Below, piece by piece: positions 1,747-39,459 of a DNA stretch of 40,630 nt. Below the pieces are notes generated by a model that ran no database searches, had not been told where the DNA came from, and saw only the letters and a list, made by a program, of their open reading frames with translations. The translations under genes were made by a program, and so were the position numbers. Numbering within the stretch: position 1 is the first letter of the stretch; each line of letters begins with the position of its first letter. Where the stretch lies: positions 1-40,630 of the forward strand of contig JAEIOF010000006.1 in assembly GCA_016342445.1 (NCBI GenBank), written 5' to 3'. The DNA comes from Verrucomicrobiota bacterium (lineage in GTDB: Bacteria > Verrucomicrobiota > Kiritimatiellia > Kiritimatiellales > Tichowtungiaceae).

Positions 1747-1761
1747 TTCCAACCCTTGGAA
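1747..1761. repeat. TTCCAACCCTTGGAA palindrome
   Basis: Perfect 6-3-6 copy, intergenic. Confidence 0.95.
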
Positions 1762-1776
1762 CTTTTAGAGCCGTTT

Positions 1777-1791
1777 TTCCAAACATTGGAA
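1777..1791. repeat. TTCCAAACATTGGAA palindrome
   Basis: Perfect copy, 30 bp from previous. Confidence 0.95.
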
Positions 1792-1798
1792 ATTTTTC

Positions 1799-1813
1799 TT
1801 CCAATGTTTGGAA
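1799..1813. repeat. TTCCAATGTTTGGAA palindrome
   Basis: Perfect copy, 22 bp from previous. Confidence 0.95.
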
Positions 1814-4819: not shown

Positions 4820-5983
4820 ATGAAAGAAGACTGGATCAGCATAATTCTTGAAGAGGCCCGCTCGCAGGGGCTGACGCGACAGGCTCTCGCCTTTCCGGCG
4901 TGCGGCGGGAAAATCGATATCGACGGCAAAGAAATCCTCAACTTTTCCAGCAACGACTACCTCAACCTCGCTCATCACCCGCACGTAGTCGATCGGTCGC
5001 GGCAAGCGCTCGAAAAATACGGCGTCGGCGCAACCGGCTCGCGGCTGGTCACCGGAACCCTGCCGATCCACGAAGAGCTCGAAGCGCGGATCGCCAAAGA
5101 AAAGGGCTATCCCTCCGCGCTCGTCTTCGGCTCCGGCTACCTCGCCAACGCCGGAACCATTCCCGTACTCGCCGGGCGCAATGACACCATCTTTGCCGAC
5201 AAGCTCGTCCACGCCAGCATGATCGACGCCTGCAGGCTCAGCGGCGCCAAACTCGTCCGCTTCGCCCACAACGATTTCCAATCATTGGAAAGCAGGCTTC
5301 AAGAGTTTCCAAACCTTGGAAACCGTCAGCTCATCCTCACCGAATCGGTCTTCAGCATGGACGGCGACCTCGCCCCGCTGAAGGAAATCGCCGCGCTGGC
5401 CGACCAATACGGCGCGATGCTGATGGTCGACGAAGCGCACGCCTCCGGCACCTTCGGGCCGCACGGTGCCGGGTTGATCCGCGAATGCGGACTCGAAAAC
5501 GCCGTCACCGTCTCCATGGGCACGATGAGCAAGGCGTTCGGCGGCTACGGCGGTTTTATCGCCTGCTCCGAAAATCTGCGCAAACTCCTGATTCAGTCCG
5601 CGCGCGCCTTCATCTTTACCACCGCGCCGCCGCCCGCCGTCATCGGCGCGGCGCTTGGAACCCTGGACGTGCTCGAAGCCAGCCCCAACCTCGGGGCGTG
5701 CCTGCAAGCCAACGCCGCCTACTTCCGCGAGCTGCTTCAGGCGGGCGGGCTCGACACCCTGCAAAGCGAAAGCCAGATCATCCCTGTCGTCATTGGCGAC
5801 AACAAAAAAGCGCTGGCCGTTTCGCAGAAACTGCGCGAGCAGGGCATCATCGCCGCCGCCATCCGGCCGCCGACCGTCCCTTCCGGAACGGCCCGCCTGC
5901 GCCTTTCGGTCAGTCTGGCCCACACCCTCGACGATCTGGAACGGGCGGCCGAACTGATCAGTAAGGCGGTGAAGAATTCATGA
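4820..5983 (+). CDS. bioF: 8-amino-7-oxononanoate synthase
   Basis: NFSSNDYLNLAHHP, GVGATGSRLVTG, SVFSMDGDLAPL, VDEAHASGTFG; start taken at ATG 4820. Confidence 0.93.
   Translation: MKEDWISIILEEARSQGLTRQALAFPACGGKIDIDGKEILNFSSNDYLNLAHHPHVVDRSRQALEKYGVGATGSRLVTGTLPIHEELEARIAKEKGYPSALVFGSGYLANAGTIPVLAGRNDTIFADKLVHASMIDACRLSGAKLVRFAHNDFQSLESRLQEFPNLGNRQLILTESVFSMDGDLAPLKEIAALADQYGAMLMVDEAHASGTFGPHGAGLIRECGLENAVTVSMGTMSKAFGGYGGFIACSENLRKLLIQSARAFIFTTAPPPAVIGAALGTLDVLEASPNLGACLQANAAYFRELLQAGGLDTLQSESQIIPVVIGDNKKALAVSQKLREQGIIAAAIRPPTVPSGTARLRLSVSLAHTLDDLERAAELISKAVKNS
5276..5290. repeat. TTCCAATCATTGGAA palindrome
   Basis: Perfect copy inside bioF (FQSLE). Confidence 0.95.
5307..5321. repeat. 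TTCCAAACCTTGGAA palindrome
   Basis: Perfect copy inside bioF (FPNLGN), 31 bp from previous. Confidence 0.95.
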
Positions 5984-6621
5984 AGCCCTCTCTGACCCTC
6001 ATTACGGGCTGGGCGCACGGCACAGAATCGCTGCAACCGCTCGCCGAACAGCTCTCCACCGAATTTGACGTCCGGATTTTGACCGGCGCACAGGTGCTGG
6101 CGGAGAAGAAAATCCCGGACGCCGATTTTGTGATCGGCTGGTCGATGGGCGGCATGCTGGCGATTGAATACCTGCCCGCCCGTTGTAAAAAACTGGTTCT
6201 AATCTCCTCGACCGCCAGGTTCTGCGCCGCAGAAAACTATCCCTGCGGCGTCCCTGAAAAAGTGCTGCGCCGCATGATTGTGCAGCTCAAGCGCGACCCC
6301 GGCACGGTGCTGGCGGAATTCTATAAAAACGTCAGCCACCCTCACCCGCCGAAACCGGGTTCGTGCGCATACGAACACCTCGCGGAAGGGCTCGACTACC
6401 TGCGAACCGCCGATCTGCGCGAAAAAGTTCCAACCATTGGAAACCCCGTTCTGCTTCTGCACGGCGAAGAGGATCTCATTATTCCGCCCGCCGCATCCGA
6501 CTGGCTCGCGCAACACCTGCCGACAGCGAGAAGCGTTCGGCTGGCCGGCGAAGGTCATCAGCCAGATCCCCTTGCCATTGCTCCGCACATCCGTCATTTT
6601 CTGACCCCGGAAAAACCATGA
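5980..6621 (+). CDS. Alpha/beta hydrolase, pimeloyl-ACP methyl ester esterase-like (BioH/BioG role)
   Basis: GWSMGGMLAIEYLP nucleophile elbow, C-terminal GEGHQPD; ATGA overlap with bioF, located between bioF and bioC. Confidence 0.75.
   Translation: MKPSLTLITGWAHGTESLQPLAEQLSTEFDVRILTGAQVLAEKKIPDADFVIGWSMGGMLAIEYLPARCKKLVLISSTARFCAAENYPCGVPEKVLRRMIVQLKRDPGTVLAEFYKNVSHPHPPKPGSCAYEHLAEGLDYLRTADLREKVPTIGNPVLLLHGEEDLIIPPAASDWLAQHLPTARSVRLAGEGHQPDPLAIAPHIRHFLTPEKP
6428..6442. repeat. TTCCAACCATTGGAA palindrome
   Basis: Perfect copy inside hydrolase gene (VPTIGN). Confidence 0.95.
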
Positions 6622-7388
6622 TCGAAAAAAGATTTTCAGCCGCCGCCGAAACCTATGACCGCCACGCCCGCCCGCAACTCTCGCTGGCGCGGTCGGTCTG
6701 CGATGTCCTGCCCGAAATTTATCCCGAGCAGATTCTGGAGCTGGGGTGCGGAACCGGACAGCTCACCCGCCTGCTGTTCGACCGGTTTCCCGACGTCCCG
6801 ATCGACGCCGTGGACCTTTCCGAAAAAATGGTGGAATACAGCCGCAATAAATTCAAACGGTTCAATCAGGCCACCTGGATTCAGGGCGATGCACAGACGT
6901 ATCGCGGACAAGACCCTTACCCGCTGATTGTTTCGAGCGCCGCGCTGCACTGGGTTTCCGACCTTCGGAAAACATTCGAGAATATTTTCCAATGTCTGGA
7001 AAAAGACGGCTTCTTCGCGCTCGGCATGATGCTCAGCGGAACCCTCAAAGAACTGCTCGCCGTGCGACAGGAAGTTGCGCCGCAAAAAACGCCGGCGAGC
7101 GCGCTCCCCGCGCTGGAGGAACTGATGGAAAACCTTCACGCCGCCGGCTTTAAAATCCTGCGCAAAAAGCTGAGCGAGGAGGAGGTCTCCTATCGAAGCG
7201 CGACCGACTTTCTGCGAACCATCCACGAACAGGGGGTCACCGGCGCGAAAGTCGCCTCGGGCCGCGAGCCCCTGAACCGCAGCGAAATCGACCGGCTGAT
7301 CGAACTCTATCAGGATCGTTACAGCTCCGCCGACGGCGTAACCGCCACCTACGAAACCGCTACCCTCCTGCTGACGAAAACATCATGA
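6618..7388 (+). CDS. bioC: Malonyl-ACP O-methyltransferase
   Basis: FSAAAETYDRHARPQ...ILELGCGTGQLTRLL; ATGA overlap with upstream gene; position in bio operon. Confidence 0.88.
   Translation: MIEKRFSAAAETYDRHARPQLSLARSVCDVLPEIYPEQILELGCGTGQLTRLLFDRFPDVPIDAVDLSEKMVEYSRNKFKRFNQATWIQGDAQTYRGQDPYPLIVSSAALHWVSDLRKTFENIFQCLEKDGFFALGMMLSGTLKELLAVRQEVAPQKTPASALPALEELMENLHAAGFKILRKKLSEEEVSYRSATDFLRTIHEQGVTGAKVASGREPLNRSEIDRLIELYQDRYSSADGVTATYETATLLLTKTS
6987..7001. repeat. TTCCAATGTCTGGAA near-palindrome
   Basis: One mismatch; inside bioC (FQCLE). Confidence 0.8.
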
Positions 7389-8098
7389 AGGGATTCTTCA
7401 TCACCGGAACGGATACCGGCATCGGCAAAACCGCGCTCAGCGCACTGCTGCTGGCCGAGCTTCGCCGCCGCAGAATCAACGCGGCGCCGATGAAGCCCGC
7501 CCAGACCGGCTGCGAAGGCGACGGTGTTCCGGATTTGGACTACTCCCTTTCCATGGCCGGGATGACTGTTTCGGATGAAGACTATGCCCTGATGTCGCCC
7601 TACCGCTTTGAGCCGGCCTGCTCGCCGCACCTCGCGGCGGAACTGGCCGGAACGGAAATCGAACTCGCCAAAATCGTGGGCGCGGCACGGGAACTGGCGG
7701 CGGAATACGACTCGCTGATCGTCGAAGGCGCGGGCGGCATTCTGGTTCCAATTAACCGTAACAAAACGATGCTTGATCTCATGAAGGCGCTCGGCCTGCC
7801 GGTTCTGCTCGCCGCCCGCCCCGGCCTCGGAACGATCAATCACACCCTGCTCTCCATCCGCGCGTTGCGCTCCGCCGGACTCGACATCGCAGGCATCGTC
7901 TTCGTCGCCAGCGAAGCCGATGAACCCGGCTTTATCGAAGACGACAACGGCGCCACCATCGAACAGTTCGGCAAGGTTCCAATCCTTGGAACCATTCCCT
8001 TCTGCCCGCACCTCCGCAACCCCGCCCCCGTTTACTCCGCTCTTCCCCTGCCCGTCGCAGCCGAAGTGGAAAAAATTACAAATCAACTGACTCTATGA
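7385..8098 (+). CDS. bioD: Dethiobiotin synthetase
   Basis: MKGFFITGTDTGIGKTALSALL, KPAQTGC, VEGAGGILVPI. Confidence 0.95.
   Translation: MKGFFITGTDTGIGKTALSALLLAELRRRRINAAPMKPAQTGCEGDGVPDLDYSLSMAGMTVSDEDYALMSPYRFEPACSPHLAAELAGTEIELAKIVGAARELAAEYDSLIVEGAGGILVPINRNKTMLDLMKALGLPVLLAARPGLGTINHTLLSIRALRSAGLDIAGIVFVASEADEPGFIEDDNGATIEQFGKVPILGTIPFCPHLRNPAPVYSALPLPVAAEVEKITNQLTL
7977..7991. repeat. TTCCAATCCTTGGAA palindrome
   Basis: Perfect copy inside bioD (VPILGT). Confidence 0.9.
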
Positions 8099-9360
8099 AA
8101 AACCGGATTTTCCACCCCTACACGCCGTTTTCGGCAATCGAAAAAGGCTTCCCGAACATGGTGCGCGGCGAGGGGATCTACCTCTTTGACGATGCAGGCA
8201 ATAAGTATGTCGATATCGTGTCGAGCTGGTGGGCCTGCGCACTGGGGCACGGCCATCCAAAGGTGGTTGAAGCAATTCAGAAACAGGCGGGGGTTTTGCA
8301 GCACAGCATTACCGGCAGTCTGACCCATCCGGGGGTGATGGAACTGGCTGACCGACTAGCGCACTTGATGCCGACGCCGGAGCGGCACTCCGTTTTCGCC
8401 AGCGACGGGTGCAGCGCAGTCGAGGCCGCACTGAAGGTCGCGATCCAATACTGGTACAACCTCGATCGGCCCGAAAAAACCTGGCTGATCGGAATGGATC
8501 AGGGCTATCACGGCGATTCGCTCGGCGCGCTCGGCGCGGGCTTTGTCGACGGGTTCCACAAGCCTTTTGAGCGGATTGTTTCCCACCCGGCAAAACTTCC
8601 GTTCCCTGTTTCGTCCGATGACGATCCCGATGGATTCGAACCGTCGCGCAAAGTGATTGAGGAGCATGCGGACCAGCTGGCCGCCGTGATTGTCGAGCCG
8701 CTCTGTCTCGGCTCGGCCGGGATGAAAATCTATTCGGCAGGCTACCTCAAACAACTGGCCGACTGCTGCGCGGCCAACGATGTGCTGCTGATCATCGATG
8801 AAGTCGCCATGGGCTTCGGGCGCACCGGCAAACTTTTCGCCTTCAATCACGCTGGAATTGATCCCGACATGGTCTGCGTCGGCAAGGCGCTGACGGCGGG
8901 CTACATGCCGCTGAGCGCCTGCATCGTGAAGGATGAAATCTACAACACCTTCTCCGACACGCCGGAAGATCACACCTTTTACCACGGCAACACCTTTGCC
9001 GGCCACCCGATCGGCTGCGCCGCCGCGCTGGCTGCGCTCGACATCTACGAAGCGGAAGATACCGTTGAGCGCGCGGCGGAGATGGCCGAAAAAATGAAAC
9101 AGTGGATGCAGCCGATGGCCGGAATGGAGTGCGTGGCAGAACTGCGTTTTCTCGGCATGATCGGCGTGGTGGAACTGAAACCGGAAATGAAGCCGCTGAT
9201 CGCCGCAATCAAACAGTCGCTCTTTGAACAGGGCTATCTGTTCCGCCCGCTCGGCACCATGTTCTATCTGATGCCGCCGCTGGTGATCAGCGATGACGAG
9301 TTGAAAGCGGCGGTTGACGCACTGCATGCGACAATTCATGATGTTGCGCTATGCAAATAA
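8095..9360 (+). CDS. bioA: Adenosylmethionine--8-amino-7-oxononanoate aminotransferase
   Basis: IFHPYTPF, SSWWACALGHGHP, IIDEVAMGFGRTGKLFAFNHA; ATGA overlap with bioD. Confidence 0.95.
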   Translation: MKNRIFHPYTPFSAIEKGFPNMVRGEGIYLFDDAGNKYVDIVSSWWACALGHGHPKVVEAIQKQAGVLQHSITGSLTHPGVMELADRLAHLMPTPERHSVFASDGCSAVEAALKVAIQYWYNLDRPEKTWLIGMDQGYHGDSLGALGAGFVDGFHKPFERIVSHPAKLPFPVSSDDDPDGFEPSRKVIEEHADQLAAVIVEPLCLGSAGMKIYSAGYLKQLADCCAANDVLLIIDEVAMGFGRTGKLFAFNHAGIDPDMVCVGKALTAGYMPLSACIVKDEIYNTFSDTPEDHTFYHGNTFAGHPIGCAAALAALDIYEAEDTVERAAEMAEKMKQWMQPMAGMECVAELRFLGMIGVVELKPEMKPLIAAIKQSLFEQGYLFRPLGTMFYLMPPLVISDDELKAAVDALHATIHDVALCK

Positions 9361-11099
9361 AGATATTTCTGATTTCCGCCATTTTCACCGGGGCTCTGAC
9401 CGCTGCGGCCGAAACCAATATTCCGACCATCACGGTGACCGCCTCCGCGCAGACGAGCGAAAACGCCGCCATCCACGAGGTGCTGCGCGCCGAGCCGGGC
9501 GTCGTGCTCAACTCACAGGGCGGCTCGCAAAACGACCTGTCGGTTCGCGGCAGCTCCTTCAGCGGCGCGGGCCTCTCGCTCGGCGGGCTGACGCTGCGCA
9601 ACCCGCAGACCGAACATTTTAATGCCGAACTGCCCCTGCCCGCCGCGATGCTGTCGCGCCCCTCGGTCCGGACCGGCCTCGACAATCAGGGCGGCCACCT
9701 CGTCGGGACGGTGAATTTCGATCTTCTTCCAATCATTGGAAAAAAACAGATGGAAGCCGGATTCGGGGCCGACCACCGCGACTGGCAGAGCCTGCTGGTT
9801 CAGCAGATGCTCACCGACACCCTCGGCATCGGCGTGTTTGCCGGGCGCGAATCGGCCAATGGCGTCGACTATTCCGATAACGACTACGATCGCGAATATG
9901 TTGGCGGTCACTTGCAGTTCCGCCAAGACGACACACAGGTAGACTTACTGATTGCCCATCAGGAAAAAGAGTTCGGCGCGCGCGGCTACTACGGTGTAAC
10001 CGATGCCTTGCCGGCAACGGAGGCCACTGAAGATACATTGATCTTCCTGTCGGCAACCCGAGGCGATCTGAACGGTGCCTACCTGCGCGGCGGCATTTCG
10101 TGGCACGAATTCAACGACGACTATCAGCTCCCGACCATCAGCTACCGCAACCAGCATCGCTCCCGTATCAGCTCGGCCTTTTTTGACGGCCGCACGCTGG
10201 AAGTCAACGGGTTCGCGCTCAGCTGGCGCGCCGATGTGGATGAGGAACGCGTCGCCAGCTCTGGGCTCGGATTCCACCACCGCACCCGCGGCGGCGTTTC
10301 GCTGCTGCCGCAGTGGCGCGGCGACCGCCTGAAAATCACCGCCGGAATACGCGGCGAATTTTTAGCCGGCAACCCGCCGGAGTACCTCCCGCAGCTCGGC
10401 GCGGAATACCTGCTCTCCGACAATCTGACCGCATTTGCCTCCTATACCGAAACCGTCCGACTGCCCTCCTACACCGAGCTCAACTACAACTCTCCGTCCA
10501 GCCTCGGCACCGCCGGCCTCAAGCCGCAGACCACCGAGCAAGTGGAAATCGGGTTCAAGGGCATTCCGTCGGAGTCGATGGACTGGAAAGTCTCCGCCTT
10601 CCACCGCCGCTCGAAAAACACGATCGACTGGATGAAAACCAACTCCGTCGCGCGCTGGGTTGCCGCCGACATCGGCAATCTGGATGTGTACGGACTGGAA
10701 GCCCAGCTCGGCTGGTATCCGGCGCAGAATATCGAAATGCAGTTTGCCTACACCTGGATCTATAAAGATCGGGAAGCATCAGACTTCGGAGGCTATGCCT
10801 CCCGTTACGCACTCGACTATCCGGAGCATCTCGCGCAGGCCTCACTGCTCTGGCGTCCGGTGGACGCGGTGGAAATCGGAACCGTACAAACCCTTCGGCT
10901 ACAAACCGAAAACAACGCCCGGACCAGCAGCGACTTTGGTGCCGACAGCTCCTTCGTGGTGCGCTTCACGCCGCCCAAGGCCGACTGCGCCACCCTCTCC
11001 CTGCTGATCAACAATGCGTGGAACGACAACTTCCAGGCCTTCCCCGGCCAAAAGCCGCCAGAGCGGTTCGCCGGAATCTCCCTGACTCTGACGTGGTAG
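9351..11099 (+). CDS. TonB-dependent outer-membrane receptor
   Basis: Signal peptide; plug-like ITVTASAQTSENAAIHEVLRAEPGVVLNSQGGSQNDLSVRGSSFSGAGLSLGGL; C-terminal beta strands ending LTLTW; starts inside the bioA 3' end. Confidence 0.85.
   Translation: MQIKIFLISAIFTGALTAAAETNIPTITVTASAQTSENAAIHEVLRAEPGVVLNSQGGSQNDLSVRGSSFSGAGLSLGGLTLRNPQTEHFNAELPLPAAMLSRPSVRTGLDNQGGHLVGTVNFDLLPIIGKKQMEAGFGADHRDWQSLLVQQMLTDTLGIGVFAGRESANGVDYSDNDYDREYVGGHLQFRQDDTQVDLLIAHQEKEFGARGYYGVTDALPATEATEDTLIFLSATRGDLNGAYLRGGISWHEFNDDYQLPTISYRNQHRSRISSAFFDGRTLEVNGFALSWRADVDEERVASSGLGFHHRTRGGVSLLPQWRGDRLKITAGIRGEFLAGNPPEYLPQLGAEYLLSDNLTAFASYTETVRLPSYTELNYNSPSSLGTAGLKPQTTEQVEIGFKGIPSESMDWKVSAFHRRSKNTIDWMKTNSVARWVAADIGNLDVYGLEAQLGWYPAQNIEMQFAYTWIYKDREASDFGGYASRYALDYPEHLAQASLLWRPVDAVEIGTVQTLRLQTENNARTSSDFGADSSFVVRFTPPKADCATLSLLINNAWNDNFQAFPGQKPPERFAGISLTLTW
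9727..9741. repeat. TTCCAATCATTGGAA palindrome
   Basis: Perfect copy inside TonB-receptor gene (LPIIGK). Confidence 0.95.
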
Positions 11100-13584: not shown

Positions 13585-14772
13585 ATGAGTGTACCCAAAC
13601 GACGTTTTGGAAAAACGGAACTGCAAATGCCCGTCCTCACCTGCGGCGGCATGCGCTACCAGCAATCGTGGCAGGACGACGAAGCGGCGCGCAACTCCGT
13701 CACTGAAGAAAACCAGAACAACCTCGAGGCCACCGTCCGCTACGCACTCGACCTCGGCATCAACCACATCGAAACCGCGCGCGGCTACGGCACGTCCGAG
13801 TACCAGCTCGGAAAACTTCTGCCGTCCCTGCCGCGCGACGAAATCATCGTCCAAACCAAAGTCAGCCCCAAAGACACCCCCGCTGAATTTCTCGAAGCCT
13901 TCGAAACCTCCATGGCCGCGCTCCAGCTCGACTATGTCGACCTGCTTGCCATCCACGGCATCAACAACGAGGAAACTCTTCAGCAGGCAATCAAAAGCAT
14001 GCCCGCGCTCGATCAGCTCAAAAAAGAGGGCCGGTGCCGCCATATCGGCTTTTCAACGCACGGCCCGTCCGATCTGGTTGTCAAGGCCATCGAAACCGGC
14101 CTCTTCGACTACGTCAACCTCCACTGGTACTTCGTCTATCACCCGATCAACTGGGCTCCGGTCGAAGCCGCCGCCAAACACGACATGGGCGTACTCATCA
14201 TCAGCCCGGTCGACAAAGGCGGCATGCTCTACCAGCCGCCACCGAAGCTGATCGACCTCTGCCAACCGCTCACCCCGATGGCCTTCAACAATCTCTACTG
14301 CCTGCGCCGCCCCGAAGTTCACACGCTGTCCATCGGCGCCGCGCGTCCGTCCGACTTTGTCGAGCACGTCGCCGCCGTCCAGGGTTTGGAAGAAAAGTTT
14401 CCAATGGTTGGAAGAATCGAAGCCAAAATTTTCCAATGGTTGGAAAACGCCCTTGGAGCCGACTGGATGCACCACTGGCACGAAGGGCTTCCGCGACAAG
14501 TCGATACGCCCGGAGAACTCAACATTCCCGAGATTCTTCGCCTCTGGACCTATGCCAAAGGGCTCGACCTGGTGGCGTTCGGAAAGATGCGCTACAACCT
14601 CATGGGACAGGCCGAACACTGGTTCCCCGGACAGCCCGCCACCGACATCGACGACGAAGTGCTCAAGCCGTTTCTTAAAAACAGCCCCTTCGCCGACCGG
14701 ATCCCGGACATCCTGCGCGACGCCCACCAACTCCTTTTCGACGAACCGAAAAAACGACTCAGCGAATCATAA
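13585..14772 (+). CDS. Aldo/keto reductase family protein
   Basis: RRFGKTELQMPVLTCGGMRYQQSW...GINHIETARGYGTSEYQLG...LDYVDLLAIHGIN. Confidence 0.85.
   Translation: MSVPKRRFGKTELQMPVLTCGGMRYQQSWQDDEAARNSVTEENQNNLEATVRYALDLGINHIETARGYGTSEYQLGKLLPSLPRDEIIVQTKVSPKDTPAEFLEAFETSMAALQLDYVDLLAIHGINNEETLQQAIKSMPALDQLKKEGRCRHIGFSTHGPSDLVVKAIETGLFDYVNLHWYFVYHPINWAPVEAAAKHDMGVLIISPVDKGGMLYQPPPKLIDLCQPLTPMAFNNLYCLRRPEVHTLSIGAARPSDFVEHVAAVQGLEEKFPMVGRIEAKIFQWLENALGADWMHHWHEGLPRQVDTPGELNIPEILRLWTYAKGLDLVAFGKMRYNLMGQAEHWFPGQPATDIDDEVLKPFLKNSPFADRIPDILRDAHQLLFDEPKKRLSES
14399..14413. repeat. TTCCAATGGTTGGAA palindrome
   Basis: Perfect copy in aldo/keto reductase gene (FPMVGR). Confidence 0.95.
14431..14445. 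repeat. TTCCAATGGTTGGAA palindrome
   Basis: Perfect copy, 32 bp from previous (FQWLE). Confidence 0.95.
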
Positions 14773-16918: not shown

Positions 16919-17377
16919 ATGGTTGTCAGAAAAGTTACGCTCAACGGGAACCGGGGCGAACCCGCCATCGCGGCGGAGTGGATCCGGGCGCTGAATGACG
17001 GGCTCATCCTGACGAAAAAAGCGGGCTTTCTGTTTAAAGCATCATGGGACGAAGACCATTTGATGCTGGCGGTTGCCCCCTGCCTGATCAACGGTGAGCG
17101 GAGCTACCATTACAACCAGCATCTGGAAAAGGAAGATGCGTTTACGCTGATCGGTGAAGTCAGTGCGCAGGGCGTTTTCACGATTCTGTTTAAACCGGAA
17201 AGCCGCGAATTTGCAATACAACAGGCCGGGCGCTACATAGACCTCTTCCGCCGGTTTGCGGAATTCCTGCGTCAGGGCGGATATGCCGGAGAGGGGAAAC
17301 TGGATGATGTCACGCAAGGCGTTCTGAAAAGCCTCGGCATGAACTGCCCGCCGGAAACCCTCGACGAACTATTATAA
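16919..17377 (+). CDS. Hypothetical protein, 152 aa
   Basis: Complete ORF between palindrome array and terminator; no recognised family. Confidence 0.55.
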   Translation: MVVRKVTLNGNRGEPAIAAEWIRALNDGLILTKKAGFLFKASWDEDHLMLAVAPCLINGERSYHYNQHLEKEDAFTLIGEVSAQGVFTILFKPESREFAIQQAGRYIDLFRRFAEFLRQGGYAGEGKLDDVTQGVLKSLGMNCPPETLDELL

Positions 17378-20909: not shown

Positions 20910-22268
20910 CTATCTCAACTCATCAAGCCGACCGGTCAGGATGAAATCATTAAAGATTTGGATGAGCCCCTGACGGGCGAGCGCCGTCCGGTAGAGCTTC
21001 GGCGAATGGTCGGGGCCGAAAAGCGTGTAAGCCGTTTCGCGGATCACACTGTTCATCGGCTCAACCAAAAGGTTTTCCAGCGCGGTTTCATCGCCCTTCG
21101 CCAGCCGGTACGGCACAAACACATTCAGCTCGATCGCTTTCAAACGGTCTTTGCCGACGAGCTCCGCCTTTTTCTCTTTTCCCGTCCACCCAACATGCTC
21201 CGTCCAAAAGCATTTTTCCAAACATTGGAACCCGGCTGCGTTGGGGCGTGTTGTCTTTTCCAATGTTTGGAAAACGCCGTCGGCAATCCACTGCGCAAGC
21301 GCGCAGAGACGCCGGACGGGATGGTTGAGCGGGCGCAGGCCGGAAAAATTCCAGTCGGCGCGGGTCAGCGGCTCGACCTCTTCCCACTTGTGCTCTTCAC
21401 GCCACCAGAGATCCCACAACGAACGCAACTCGGTCTTGGATGCCTGCGGCCACCTGGCCCCGGGTTGCTTGGGGAGCAGTCCGGAGAGCCCGAGCAACAC
21501 GGCATAAACGGTTTTCCAATCGGCTCCGTACTGGGCAAGCGATTCAAGCGGAAGGCGTTGCGACAACCTCCGGAACGGGCCCTTGTTGTGCTTGTAGCCG
21601 AGCGCGGCGGCGGTCTCTTCGTAGAGCGCCTGCGCCTCGCCGCGCTGTTGCATCAGCCACGCAAGGCGCAGCGTCTTCTGCCGAAGCCGTTCTTCGCCCG
21701 CACTTTCCAGGCAACTGCGTTGCATTTCAGCGCTTCGCGTCGCAAGGGCTGACGTTTTGGATGCCCTTGGTTCACTGTATGGATACGCCGTTAGATCGAT
21801 GCTTTCGAGGTCGGTGGTGCACCTATCGCAAACCGATATGTGCACCGTGCCGGGAGGGAAGAGGGATTCATCGGCGGTTCCGGGGAACCAGGTGATGTGA
21901 AAGCGGACGTTGGTATAGAGCGGGTCGGTGTGGTGCCCGTGGTTTTTCCAATCATTGGAAAAAATGTGGATCTCGGCGTCGCCCGCGACGCGACGCTTTT
22001 CCCGGCCAATCAGCAAAACCGCACCCCGAAAGTCCGGCCCGGCCTCGAGGTTCCAGCGCCCTGGATTTTCAACAGCCACCGGTTCTCCGCGCGAGGTTTT
22101 CAGCTTCTGCGGGCGGAGAGAGTCGTCAAACCAAAGGGCGTGCAGGTGGCGCTCCGTGTAGGGAAAATAGCGTCCAGCGGTTTCGCGCACTTCGCCGGGC
22201 GAAATAAGTGTACGGTACGCCGCGGCCCTCGGGAACAATGCGTCCTGAATGGGCGGTGCGGCATACAT
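20910..22268 (-). CDS. DUF2851 family protein
   Basis: YTERHLHALWFDDSLRPQKLKTSRGEPVAVENPGRWNLEAGPDFRGAVLLIG...GDAEIHIFSNDW. Confidence 0.75.
   Translation of the reverse strand: MYAAPPIQDALFPRAAAYRTLISPGEVRETAGRYFPYTERHLHALWFDDSLRPQKLKTSRGEPVAVENPGRWNLEAGPDFRGAVLLIGREKRRVAGDAEIHIFSNDWKNHGHHTDPLYTNVRFHITWFPGTADESLFPPGTVHISVCDRCTTDLESIDLTAYPYSEPRASKTSALATRSAEMQRSCLESAGEERLRQKTLRLAWLMQQRGEAQALYEETAAALGYKHNKGPFRRLSQRLPLESLAQYGADWKTVYAVLLGLSGLLPKQPGARWPQASKTELRSLWDLWWREEHKWEEVEPLTRADWNFSGLRPLNHPVRRLCALAQWIADGVFQTLEKTTRPNAAGFQCLEKCFWTEHVGWTGKEKKAELVGKDRLKAIELNVFVPYRLAKGDETALENLLVEPMNSVIRETAYTLFGPDHSPKLYRTALARQGLIQIFNDFILTGRLDELR
21216..21230. repeat. TTCCAAACATTGGAA palindrome
   Basis: Perfect copy inside DUF2851 gene (FQCLE on minus strand). 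Confidence 0.95.
21258..21272. repeat. TTCCAATGTTTGGAA palindrome
   Basis: Perfect copy, 42 bp from previous (FQTLE on minus strand). Confidence 0.95.
21946..21960. repeat. TTCCAATCATTGGAA palindrome
   Basis: Perfect copy inside DUF2851 gene (SNDWK on minus strand). Confidence 0.95.
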
Positions 22269-22655: not shown

Positions 22656-25049
22656 ATGAAATTTCCGATCAGCTGGTTAAAGGAACTTGTGGATTTTGAG
22701 GATAGTCTGGAGGGACTTTCCGACAAACTGACGTTTGCCGGCCTCGAAGTCGAAAACATTAAAACCACCGGCGGAACCTTTGAGGGCGTTGTCGTTGGCG
22801 AAGTGCTCGCCATTGAGCCGCACCCGGACGCGGAAAAGCTCCGCCTCTGCACCGTCGAATACGGCGCGGCCGAAACCCTGCAAGTGGTCTGCGGCGCGCC
22901 GAATGTTCAGATTGGCGGAAAGTATCCCTTCGCCACCGTCGGCACCACCCTGCCGTGCGGCATCACCCTCAAGAGAGCTAAAATCCGCGGCGTCGAATCG
23001 CTCGGGATGCTCTGCGCCAAAGACGAGCTGGGGCTCGGCGAGGACCACTCCGGCCTGCTTAACCTCGACGCAGAAGCCGCGCCCGGCACCCCGCTGGCCG
23101 AACTGATGGACCCGCCCGAAAGCGTCTTTGAGCTCGAAATCACCCCGAATCGCCCCGATTGCCTCAGCCTGATCGGCGTCGCCCGCGAAGTCGCCGCCCT
23201 CTACGGCACAGACCTTAAACTGCCCGCGATTGACCTGAAAGAAACCGACGAACCCGCGGACTCGCTCGTGCAGGTTTCCGTCGAAGATGGCGAGCGCTGC
23301 CCGCGCTACACCGCGCGCGTCCTGAAAAACGCCAAGGTCGGCCCGTCGCCCGACTGGATGAAAAACCGTCTCGAAGCCTGCGGCATCCGCCCGATCAACA
23401 ACCTCGTCGACATCACCAACTATGTTTTGCTCGAAACCGGTCATCCGCTGCACGCCTTCGACGCCACCTTGATTCAGGGCGGGAAAATCATCGTCCGCCG
23501 CGCGGCGCAGGGCGAAAAGTTCACCACGCTCGACGGAATTGAGCGCGAACTGACCCAAGAAATGCTCGTCATCGCCGACTCCGAAAAAGCCATCGCCCTC
23601 GCCGGCGTCATGGGCGGAGCCAACACCGAAATCAAAGACGACACCCAAACCGTTCTGCTCGAAGCCGCAACCTTCGAGCAATCGGGCATTCGCCACACCG
23701 CCAAAGCGCTCGGCCTCTCCACCGACAGCGCCTACCGCTTCCAACGCGGCGTCAACGCCGAAACGGTCGAATGGGCGAGTCGCCGCGCCGCAACCCTCAT
23801 GGTCGATCTGGCCGGAGCTGAAATCTGCTCCGGCGTGATCGACGTCTGCCCCGCCCCGAAAACCAAAACACAGATCACGGTGCGCTGGGCGAACATCTGC
23901 AAACTGATCGGCCTCGACATTCCGGCCGACACCATGAAACAGATTTTCCAAACATTGGAAATTTCCGTCCTGTCCAGTGACGCCGACGGCGCGCTCCTCG
24001 AAATCCCGACCTTCCGCGATGATCTCACCCGCGAGGTCGACATCATCGAAGAAGTCGCCCGGATGCATGGCGTCGACCGGATTCCCGAAAAACTGCCCTC
24101 CGCACACGTAATCGGCGGCGCACACGACGACCGCACCCGCGCCGTGACGGTCTGCCGCAAAAATCTGGCCGGACTCGGCGCGCGCGAGATTCTGAACTAC
24201 ACGCTGGTCAACCACCCCCTGCTCGATCTCTTCGGCAAAAGCGACGACCGCGAAGAGCTGCCCCACCCGATCAGCGCCGAGCAGTCCGTTCTGCGCACCT
24301 CACTCATCCCGCAAATGGTCGAAAGCCTCGGCCGCAACAAATCGCGCCAGATCAACGACGCCGTCTTTTTCGAAATCGGCCGCACCTTCACGAAGGGTGG
24401 AGTTCAGACCGAAAAAGTCTGCCTCGGACTGATGGGCACCGCCGGACGCGGTGCGCTCGACCAGCAGCGCGGTGTTAGCGAAGAAGAAGTATTCCTCTGG
24501 CTGAAAGGTTTAGTCATCAACCTGCTCGCCGCCCAAAAAGTAACGAAGGTTAAATTCCAAGCATTGGAAAAAGCTCCCGCCTTCGAAGAAGGCCGTGCGC
24601 TAAAGGTGCTTTCCGGAAAAACTGAAATCGGGGTGATCGGGCTGATCAATTCCAAAGCCCGGAAAGAGTGGCGCCTGAACGACCCGGTCGCCGCCGCCGA
24701 GCTCGATCTGGAGCCGCTGGTTTCCAATGTTTGGAAAACCGGAACCGTTCAAGACATCCCGCTCTACCCCGCTACCGAGCGTGACTTCGCCTTCATCGTC
24801 GATGAATCGGTGCGGCACGAGGAAATCCTCAAAACGATCAACGGCTCCGCTCCGGCCGAACTCGAAAAGGTAGCGCTGTTCGATATCTTCCGCGGCAAAT
24901 CGATGGAAAAGGGAAAGAAGAGCCTCGCCTACAGCTTTGTCTACCGCTCGACAAAAGGCACGCTAACCGATGAGAAGGTTAATAAATTCCACGAAACCAT
25001 CGGTAAAAAAGTCTGCGCTGCCGTCTGCGCCGTTATCCGCGAAGGCTGA
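22656..25049 (+). CDS. pheT: Phenylalanine--tRNA ligase beta subunit
   Basis: MKFPISWLKELVDF, VVVGEVLAIEPHPDAEKLRLC, NRPDCLSLIGVAREVAALYG, B3/B4 and C-terminal anticodon-binding domain. Confidence 0.95.
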   Translation: MKFPISWLKELVDFEDSLEGLSDKLTFAGLEVENIKTTGGTFEGVVVGEVLAIEPHPDAEKLRLCTVEYGAAETLQVVCGAPNVQIGGKYPFATVGTTLPCGITLKRAKIRGVESLGMLCAKDELGLGEDHSGLLNLDAEAAPGTPLAELMDPPESVFELEITPNRPDCLSLIGVAREVAALYGTDLKLPAIDLKETDEPADSLVQVSVEDGERCPRYTARVLKNAKVGPSPDWMKNRLEACGIRPINNLVDITNYVLLETGHPLHAFDATLIQGGKIIVRRAAQGEKFTTLDGIERELTQEMLVIADSEKAIALAGVMGGANTEIKDDTQTVLLEAATFEQSGIRHTAKALGLSTDSAYRFQRGVNAETVEWASRRAATLMVDLAGAEICSGVIDVCPAPKTKTQITVRWANICKLIGLDIPADTMKQIFQTLEISVLSSDADGALLEIPTFRDDLTREVDIIEEVARMHGVDRIPEKLPSAHVIGGAHDDRTRAVTVCRKNLAGLGAREILNYTLVNHPLLDLFGKSDDREELPHPISAEQSVLRTSLIPQMVESLGRNKSRQINDAVFFEIGRTFTKGGVQTEKVCLGLMGTAGRGALDQQRGVSEEEVFLWLKGLVINLLAAQKVTKVKFQALEKAPAFEEGRALKVLSGKTEIGVIGLINSKARKEWRLNDPVAAAELDLEPLVSNVWKTGTVQDIPLYPATERDFAFIVDESVRHEEILKTINGSAPAELEKVALFDIFRGKSMEKGKKSLAYSFVYRSTKGTLTDEKVNKFHETIGKKVCAAVCAVIREG
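23946..23960. repeat. TTCCAAACATTGGAA palindrome
   Basis: Perfect copy inside pheT (FQTLE). Confidence 0.95.
24555..24569. repeat. TTCCAAGCATTGGAA palindrome
   Basis: Perfect copy inside pheT (FQALE). Confidence 0.95.
24722..24736. repeat. TTCCAATGTTTGGAA palindrome
   Basis: Perfect copy inside pheT (SNVWK). Confidence 0.95.
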
Positions 25050-26710: not shown

Positions 26711-27249
26711 CCAAGGCCGAAATACGCGCACAAATCGCCGAAAAACGCCCCGATTTCCAAACATTGGAAAAACTGAGTGCCGCCGTGGTTAAAAAGTTCC
26801 AAACCTTGGAACTTTTTCAGCAGGCCAAGACGGTCGGAGTGTATATCCCCCTGCCCGACGAGGTCGATATCACCCCGCTTTTCCAATGGTTGGAAACCAA
26901 CTGCGTTGGGGCACAGACTTTTTACATTCCTGCTTATGATGAAGCTCTCGGTGTTTACCGGCTGGCGGAATACAGCGGCGAGCTGAAAAAAGGGAAGTTT
27001 GGCATTCCGGAACCGGCGAACCCGATTTTTGCACCCGAAGAGATTGACCTCATCCTCGTGCCGGGCGTCGCCTTCGACCATTCCGGAAACCGAATCGGGC
27101 GCGGCGGCGGTTTTTACGACCGCCTGCTGCCGCAGTACCGCGCCGTGCGCGCCGGAATCTGCTTCGGCTTCCAATGTTTGGAAAGAATTCCGGCCGAACC
27201 TCACGACTGCAAAATGAATCTCATCGTGACCGAGTCGCTAATTTCTTAA
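26707..27249 (+). CDS. 5-formyltetrahydrofolate cyclo-ligase
   Basis: LILVPGVAFDHSGNRIGRGGGFYDRLLPQY motif; ATGA overlap with rarA; contains four palindromes. Confidence 0.9.
   Translation: MTKAEIRAQIAEKRPDFQTLEKLSAAVVKKFQTLELFQQAKTVGVYIPLPDEVDITPLFQWLETNCVGAQTFYIPAYDEALGVYRLAEYSGELKKGKFGIPEPANPIFAPEEIDLILVPGVAFDHSGNRIGRGGGFYDRLLPQYRAVRAGICFGFQCLERIPAEPHDCKMNLIVTESLIS
26755..26769. repeat. TTCCAAACATTGGAA palindrome
   Basis: Perfect copy inside cyclo-ligase gene (FQTLE). Confidence 0.95.
26797..26811. repeat. TTCCAAACCTTGGAA palindrome
   Basis: Perfect copy, 42 bp from previous (FQTLE). Confidence 0.95.
26881..26895. repeat. TTCCAATGGTTGGAA palindrome
   Basis: Perfect copy, 84 bp from previous (FQWLE). 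Confidence 0.95.
27169..27183. repeat. TTCCAATGTTTGGAA palindrome
   Basis: Perfect copy inside cyclo-ligase gene (FQCLE). Confidence 0.95.
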
Positions 27250-39119: not shown

Positions 39120-39134
39120 TTCCAATGGCTGGAA
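39120..39134. repeat. TTCCAATGGCTGGAA near-palindrome
   Basis: One mismatch; between convergent nifX-like and feoC genes. Confidence 0.8.
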
Positions 39135-39161
39135 GCAGGCTGAGTCTGCATCCATTTAGTT

Positions 39162-39176
39162 TTCCAGTCATTGGAA
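39162..39176. repeat. TTCCAGTCATTGGAA near-palindrome
   Basis: One mismatch; 42 bp from previous. Confidence 0.8.
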
Positions 39177-39182
39177 AAATTT

Positions 39183-39197
39183 TTCCAGGGCTTGGAA
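39183..39197. repeat. TTCCAGGGCTTGGAA near-palindrome
   Basis: One mismatch; 21 bp from previous. Confidence 0.75.
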
Positions 39198-39213
39198 AAG
39201 TTTGCCCCTCGCG

Positions 39214-39459
39214 CTAGGAAACGCTGTGTCCTGACACAGTCGGTTCCAATGCCTGGAAAATGGCGGCGTCCTCGGGTTTTACTTCAACGCACCCTTTGCA
39301 CTTGGAGCATTTGGTGTCGAGCCGTCCGATACGGCCTTTGGCTTCGAGCACGGCGAGCATCCCTTCCATGGCGGAAATCTCGGACTGAAAATGCCGGGCG
39401 ATTTCCGCGAGCGACATCGGCCCGCGTTCCGCGAGGAGCTTTAGAATTTCTGTGAGCAT
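39214..39459 (-). CDS. FeoC-like transcriptional regulator
   Basis: MLTEILKLLAERGPMSLAEIARHFQSEISAMEGMLAVLEAKGRI..CSKCKGC next to feoA. Confidence 0.8.
   Translation of the reverse strand: MLTEILKLLAERGPMSLAEIARHFQSEISAMEGMLAVLEAKGRIGRLDTKCSKCKGCVEVKPEDAAIFQALEPTVSGHSVS
39244..39258. repeat. TTCCAATGCCTGGAA near-palindrome
   Basis: One mismatch; inside 3' end of feoC-like gene (FQALE on minus strand). Confidence 0.8.

Follow-up and report, generated by a model that had tools for sequence, protein, structure and literature searches.

Whole-turn spacing of a TTCCAA-N3-TTGGAA palindrome in coding and intergenic DNA of a Verrucomicrobiota bacterium

The bioF pair and its motif

The window, by which we mean the whole 40,630-nucleotide stretch of DNA that was analysed, carries a series of genes that begins with bioF and continues with an alpha/beta hydrolase gene, bioC, bioD and bioA. 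Within bioF are two short palindromes, TTCCAATCATTGGAA and TTCCAAACCTTGGAA, both of them perfect matches to TTCCAA-N3-TTGGAA, with a start-to-start distance of 31 bp, or 3 helical turns (Table 1). The BioF translation across the pair is FAHNDFQSLESRLQEFPNLGNRQLILTESVFSMDGD, and the two copies are thus read in two frames. The sequence, the coordinates, the spacing and the two frames were all as the first-pass annotation had given them. It had also stated that the pair forces a change of reading frame. The frames do differ, because 31 is not a multiple of 3, but this merely follows from the spacing and serves no purpose in itself; pairs that are 42, 63 or 84 bp apart keep the frame and are as acceptable as those 31 bp apart. 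The bioF pair is an ordinary example among hundreds of sites, with nothing about it that is particular to bioF.

Table 1. bioF and the palindromic sites of the window (spacings are start to start)
Feature	Position	Strand	Remarks
bioF, 8-amino-7-oxononanoate synthase, PLP-dependent	4820..5983	+	Host of the pair; 387 aa, aminotransferase class I/II domain
Palindrome copy 1 in bioF	5276..5290	.	TTCCAA-TCA-TTGGAA; codons F-Q-S-L-E
Palindrome copy 2 in bioF	5307..5321	.	TTCCAA-ACC-TTGGAA; codons F-P-N-L-G-N, other frame
Perfect copy in alpha/beta hydrolase gene	6428..6442	.	Gene next after bioF
Degenerate phased pair in bioC	6956..7001	.	2 and 1 mismatches; 31 bp apart
Perfect copy in bioD	7977..7991	.
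Perfect copy in TonB-dependent receptor gene	9727..9741	.
Triple between convergent genes	1747..1813	.	Spacings 30 and 22 bp
In-gene pair	14399..14445	.	Spacing 32 bp
Pair directly past stop codon	16765..16809	.	Spacing 30 bp
In-gene pair	21216..21272	.	Spacing 42 bp (4 turns)
pheT copy	23946..23960	.	Same codons kept in G001, G003, G008; also in G018 (another family)
pheT copy	24722..24736	.	Same codons kept in G003, G006, G008
Triple	26755..26895	.	Spacings 42 and 84 bp (4 and 8 turns)
Four in-phase copies with one mismatch each	39120..39258	.	Spacings 42, 21, 61 bp; adjoins dinitrogenase-cofactor-like and FeoC-like regulator genes

The window contains 27 perfect copies of TTCCAANNNTTGGAA, where 0.01 would be expected (mean of dinucleotide shuffles). 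The whole 2.09-Mb genome has 793 (402 of them within the 1.03 Mb of genome sequence examined), against 2 copies of the reversed pattern that served as a control. As a consensus the copies give (T)TTCCAA-N3-TTGGAA(A), in which the left shoulder is T-rich and the right shoulder A-rich. The middle base of the N3 core is nearly always C or G (NCM, or its complement KGN). Only the arms are common to the copies; the core is not, and the flanks beyond the shoulders are unrelated from copy to copy. A search of a literature collection containing only a minority of subscription journals found no description of a genome-wide system of helix-phased palindromes, and nothing relevant on the motif sequence or on palindromes in this bacterial group.

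By approximate gene calls, site density is 1.22 per kb between genes and 0.21 per kb inside them, a roughly six-fold difference. Density is highest where genes converge and over the first 150 bp past stop codons, and few sites fall in the last 30 bp ahead of start codons; 45% of them are inside genes, and some also lie between divergent genes.

Helical phasing in and between genes

Distances between perfect sites peak at 22, 31 (30-32), 42, 52/53, 62/63, 73, 84, 94 and 105 bp, and the relative G003 has the same distance spectrum. Phase coherence at 10.5 bp, calculated for adjacent sites with at most one mismatch, is R=0.92 at 15-60 bp (n=194) and R=0.76 at 60-110 bp; it is about 0.55-0.6 up to 450 bp, where numbers are small, and nil farther out. 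Perfect pairs in 30 related genomes number 1,967 at 30-32 bp versus 0 at 35-37 bp, a distance that is out of phase by half a turn. In the long arrays of G057, spacings of 31 and 32 bp alternate, with a mean of 31.5 bp, or 3 x 10.5.

The first-pass annotation had proposed that conservation concerns DNA phasing and not a repeated peptide. For pairs within genes we took adjacent sites of the same gene, with at most one mismatch per site, in the 1.03 Mb of genome sequence, and counted a pair as in phase when its spacing was no more than 1.5 bp from a multiple of 10.5 bp (33% by chance). By this measure 61/65 in-gene pairs are in phase (p about 6e-25), as are 171/179 adjacent intergenic pairs. The in-gene distances fall 18/31/16 modulo 3; pairs a multiple of 3 apart (18/65, chance being about one third) are thus far from the rule. 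DNA phase therefore matters, and codon phase plays no visible part. The proposal is upheld: the in-gene spacing spectrum equals the intergenic one, and the count of pairs at opposite phases in the related genomes agrees with it. Core orientation has no clear pattern with respect to spacing or gene direction.

Origin, conservation and distribution of the sites

The bioF pair lies in the loop between FAHND and SVFSMDGD, whose variability the first-pass annotation had proposed to check. Among 29 BioF homologues the loop is variable in sequence, while its length is constant to within one residue, and palindromes are present there in 0/29. Homologous bioF DNA already has near-matches, such as GTCCAGGCCTTGGAAA, and few point changes therefore suffice to make a palindrome. 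In bioF, then, it was point substitution within a loop of variable sequence, and not insertion, that gave rise to the palindromes.

Full-length bioF is 72-79% identical to that of a sister family, and in the 13 same-genus genomes bioF is absent or represented only by a paralogue 35-38% identical; for pheT of the same contig, identity with same-genus genomes is 78-83%. The biotin operon (4820-9357) was probably either transferred or lost in the same-genus genomes, with the palindromes gained since.

Sites are conserved at orthologous positions. Several same-genus genomes have the pheT sites at identical codons, and one of these sites is also at the same codons in a genome of another family. On aligned DNA, 14/30 sites have perfect arms in G003, as against 70/642 neighbouring control windows that are unchanged (p=2e-6); for G010 the figures are 8/25 and 16/620 (p=8e-7). 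Identity of the core at orthologous sites is 62%, below the background of 79%. The core has switched from the NCM to the KGN type in 6/35 conserved sites, and 2 of the 6 are exact inversions. Such flips of the core triplet, for example ACA to TGT, are seen between orthologous sites of, for instance, the window and the locus L249. Although the numbers are small, such switches may hint at inversion of the spacer through a hairpin intermediate or template switching.

The sites are spread around the chromosome. In the single-contig relative G010, 18/20 evenly spread stretches have sites, which rules out a region-restricted site of the matS type. No site is present in the stretches L018 1-20000 and L043 1-18334, where genes for TonB/ExbD, fucosidase, GDSL-lipase, secretin and sulfatase are plentiful; in the vicinity of sulfatase or fucosidase genes, sites are about half as dense as elsewhere. 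In a public viral contig, IMGVR_UViG_3300035698_006241 (L167, L168), palindrome arrays occur towards either end of L168 and enclose a phage-like stretch of 13.6 kb that is without perfect sites. The contig probably represents a prophage whose host is site-rich.

Of about 97 genomes sampled from the window's class, 30 have phased pairs; of about 190 sampled elsewhere in the phylum, none does. A gene content rich in sulfatases, together with the make-up of the phylum, would place the bacterium in Kiritimatiellae, in Verrucomicrobiota. Within one genus, copy number differs several-hundred-fold, from 1,177 in G018 to 3 in G015. A de novo search of 100 kb from each of the site-poor genomes G016, G046, G053 and G054 found no replacement palindrome; in G046 there was a trace of TCCAA-N3-TTGGA. 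A minimal regulon in site-poor genomes was considered and rejected, the few sites there adjoining unrelated genes (CD-NTase-like, HsdR-like, sulfatase).

A putative dimeric reader and the alternatives

We think it probable that the palindromes are sites, all on one face of the helix, for cooperative binding by a putative dimeric DNA-binding protein whose role is architectural or global. Such a sequence-specific protein would bind the palindromes on double-stranded DNA as a dimer, with each (T)TTCCAA arm contacted by one subunit, in successive major grooves. Neighbouring dimers would touch, either directly or through DNA wrapping or short-range bending, and sites would therefore be favoured only at whole helical turns (2, 3, 4, 5 and so on). 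We favour dimers on double-stranded DNA because of the symmetry of the sites, their phase lock, their indifference to strand and coding, the conservation of their arms while the core is free to vary, and the lack of any polarity of the type expected for RNA. Sites would be made by point mutation where the local sequence permits and then be retained by selection. Those in genes would evolve within the available codons, and helical spacing would dictate the reading frame of each copy. Hundreds of sites are found around the whole chromosome, whether the DNA is coding or not and whether upstream of, downstream of or between genes; for this reason we infer an architectural or global role, as of a sequence-specific nucleoid-associated protein, over control of one regulon. 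A point against the architectural reading is that site number ranges from more than 1,000 to 3 among members of one genus, a fast change if the system is essential. Some sites may have a regulatory role.

Several known systems have features in common with these sites. The sites of matS/MatP, Noc, SlmA and parS are palindromic and dispersed, lie in and between genes, and have a dedicated dimeric reader. To our knowledge, they number tens, occupy restricted regions of the chromosome and are not locked in helical phase, whereas here about 800 sites are found all round the chromosome. NrdR boxes consist of two palindromes about three turns apart, a spacing also seen here, but they are of even length (16 bp) and restricted to a few nrd promoters. 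REP/BIME and Rickettsia palindromic elements are short, many-copy, inserted units of similar sequence; the sites described here, in contrast, come from point substitution and have only their arms in common. It is scarcely conceivable that short mobile elements of these kinds were inserted round the genome: the many copies, the clusters and the intergenic enrichment would fit, but the BioF loop is equally long with and without palindromes and contains no insertion relative to homologues, the copies do not have core or flanks in common, and the pheT sites are built from existing codons. We also find it extremely improbable that the motif acts in RNA, as an intrinsic terminator or a post-transcriptional hairpin. 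Enrichment up to 150 bp past stop codons and in convergent gaps would be expected of such an element, and the sequence can form a short hairpin (DNA -3.7 to -6.4 kcal/mol). However, an intrinsic terminator needs a hairpin followed by a T-run, and here the T-run is upstream and the A-run downstream, the reverse of that order; a 10.5-bp spacing is irrelevant to RNA; and nearly half of the sites are inside genes, with others between divergent genes. A signal for DNA uptake or self-recognition, comparable to uptake sequences or Chi, would agree with a dispersed density of about 0.4 per kb, with the phage-like stretch that has no perfect copies between its arrays, and with the site-poor glycan-degradation loci. 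Palindromic symmetry and helical phasing of neighbours, though, are not known as features of such signals, and we regard this possibility, too, as extremely remote.

HIP1 of cyanobacteria (PMC4390886) is likewise a palindrome in very many genomic copies and is patchy among relatives. It differs in that it is 8 bp long and linked to orphan methylases, whereas the sites here span 15-17 bp, vary in their core and are strictly phased; the HIP1 paper contains neither the word 'helical' nor the word 'spacing' (PMC4390886). HIP1, for which methylation-directed mismatch repair has been proposed, is the precedent for a mutational or repair process that makes palindromes without any binding function. 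Very many copies, an origin by point substitution and fast gain and loss between relatives would all follow from such a process. We nevertheless consider it highly unlikely, as it does not predict 10.5-bp phasing of separate sites over at least 100 bp, the presence of pairs at one phase and their absence at the opposite one, or conserved arms around a fast-changing core. Closer in architecture are the operator arrays of Lrp/AsnC-family regulators, such as Ss-LrpB (PMC2995911, PMC4046817), and the sites could belong to a DNA-wrapping member of that family that, as Ss-LrpB does, occupies 15-bp palindromes on one helical face. The Ss-LrpB consensus, TTGCAA-AAT-TTGCAA, has the same 6-3-6 layout as TTCCAA-N3-TTGGAA and is bound by a dimer (PMC4046817). 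Lrp sites are clustered two or three helical turns apart on one face, with wrapping (PMC2995911), and some are in genes; the layout and these spacings are found here as well, and nearly every genome has one Lrp/AsnC gene. Lrp arrays, however, are few, degenerate and at particular targets (37 ChIP peaks for Ss-LrpB), as opposed to hundreds of perfect copies here. Moreover, site-rich and site-poor genomes alike have the Lrp/AsnC protein, and its recognition helix is highly variable within the genus while the motif is constant, which is unexpected for the reader of hundreds of sites. We therefore judge an Lrp/AsnC regulator an unlikely reader.

A comparison of phylogenetic profiles between site-rich and site-poor genomes gave no candidate among the single-copy Lrp/AsnC, ParB, HU, Crp and LexA families, none of which tracks site number. 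The ParB-family HTH protein (parS/Noc type) is present in one copy almost everywhere, with no extra copy in site-rich genomes, and the profiles of Crp HTH, HU/IHF and LexA fail to separate rich from poor genomes. The single-copy Lrp/AsnC gene is at about 16894-17373 of L031 (G000:C17; Pfam match 17083-17307); in several genomes of the genus a palindrome or near-match is situated about 53 bp ahead of the start of this gene. The reader is likely to belong to some other family, or to a subgroup that paralogues conceal.

The known nucleoid proteins of bacteria mostly bind loosely, and the known sequence-specific organisers of the chromosome have tens of sites. We tentatively suggest, as a possibility about as easily doubted as believed, that a class of bacteria has a sequence-specific, helically phased chromatin code, in which palindromes of high information content, about a thousand in all, lie both in genes and outside them and place a putative protein in same-face arrays, overlying codons regardless. 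If this is true, hundreds of nearly invariant, helix-locked sites would be a readable map of bacterial chromosome packing, and they would provide a clear case of a DNA-level code superimposed on protein-coding sequence. A palindrome pair could be used as bait, giving a simple assay for the missing protein.
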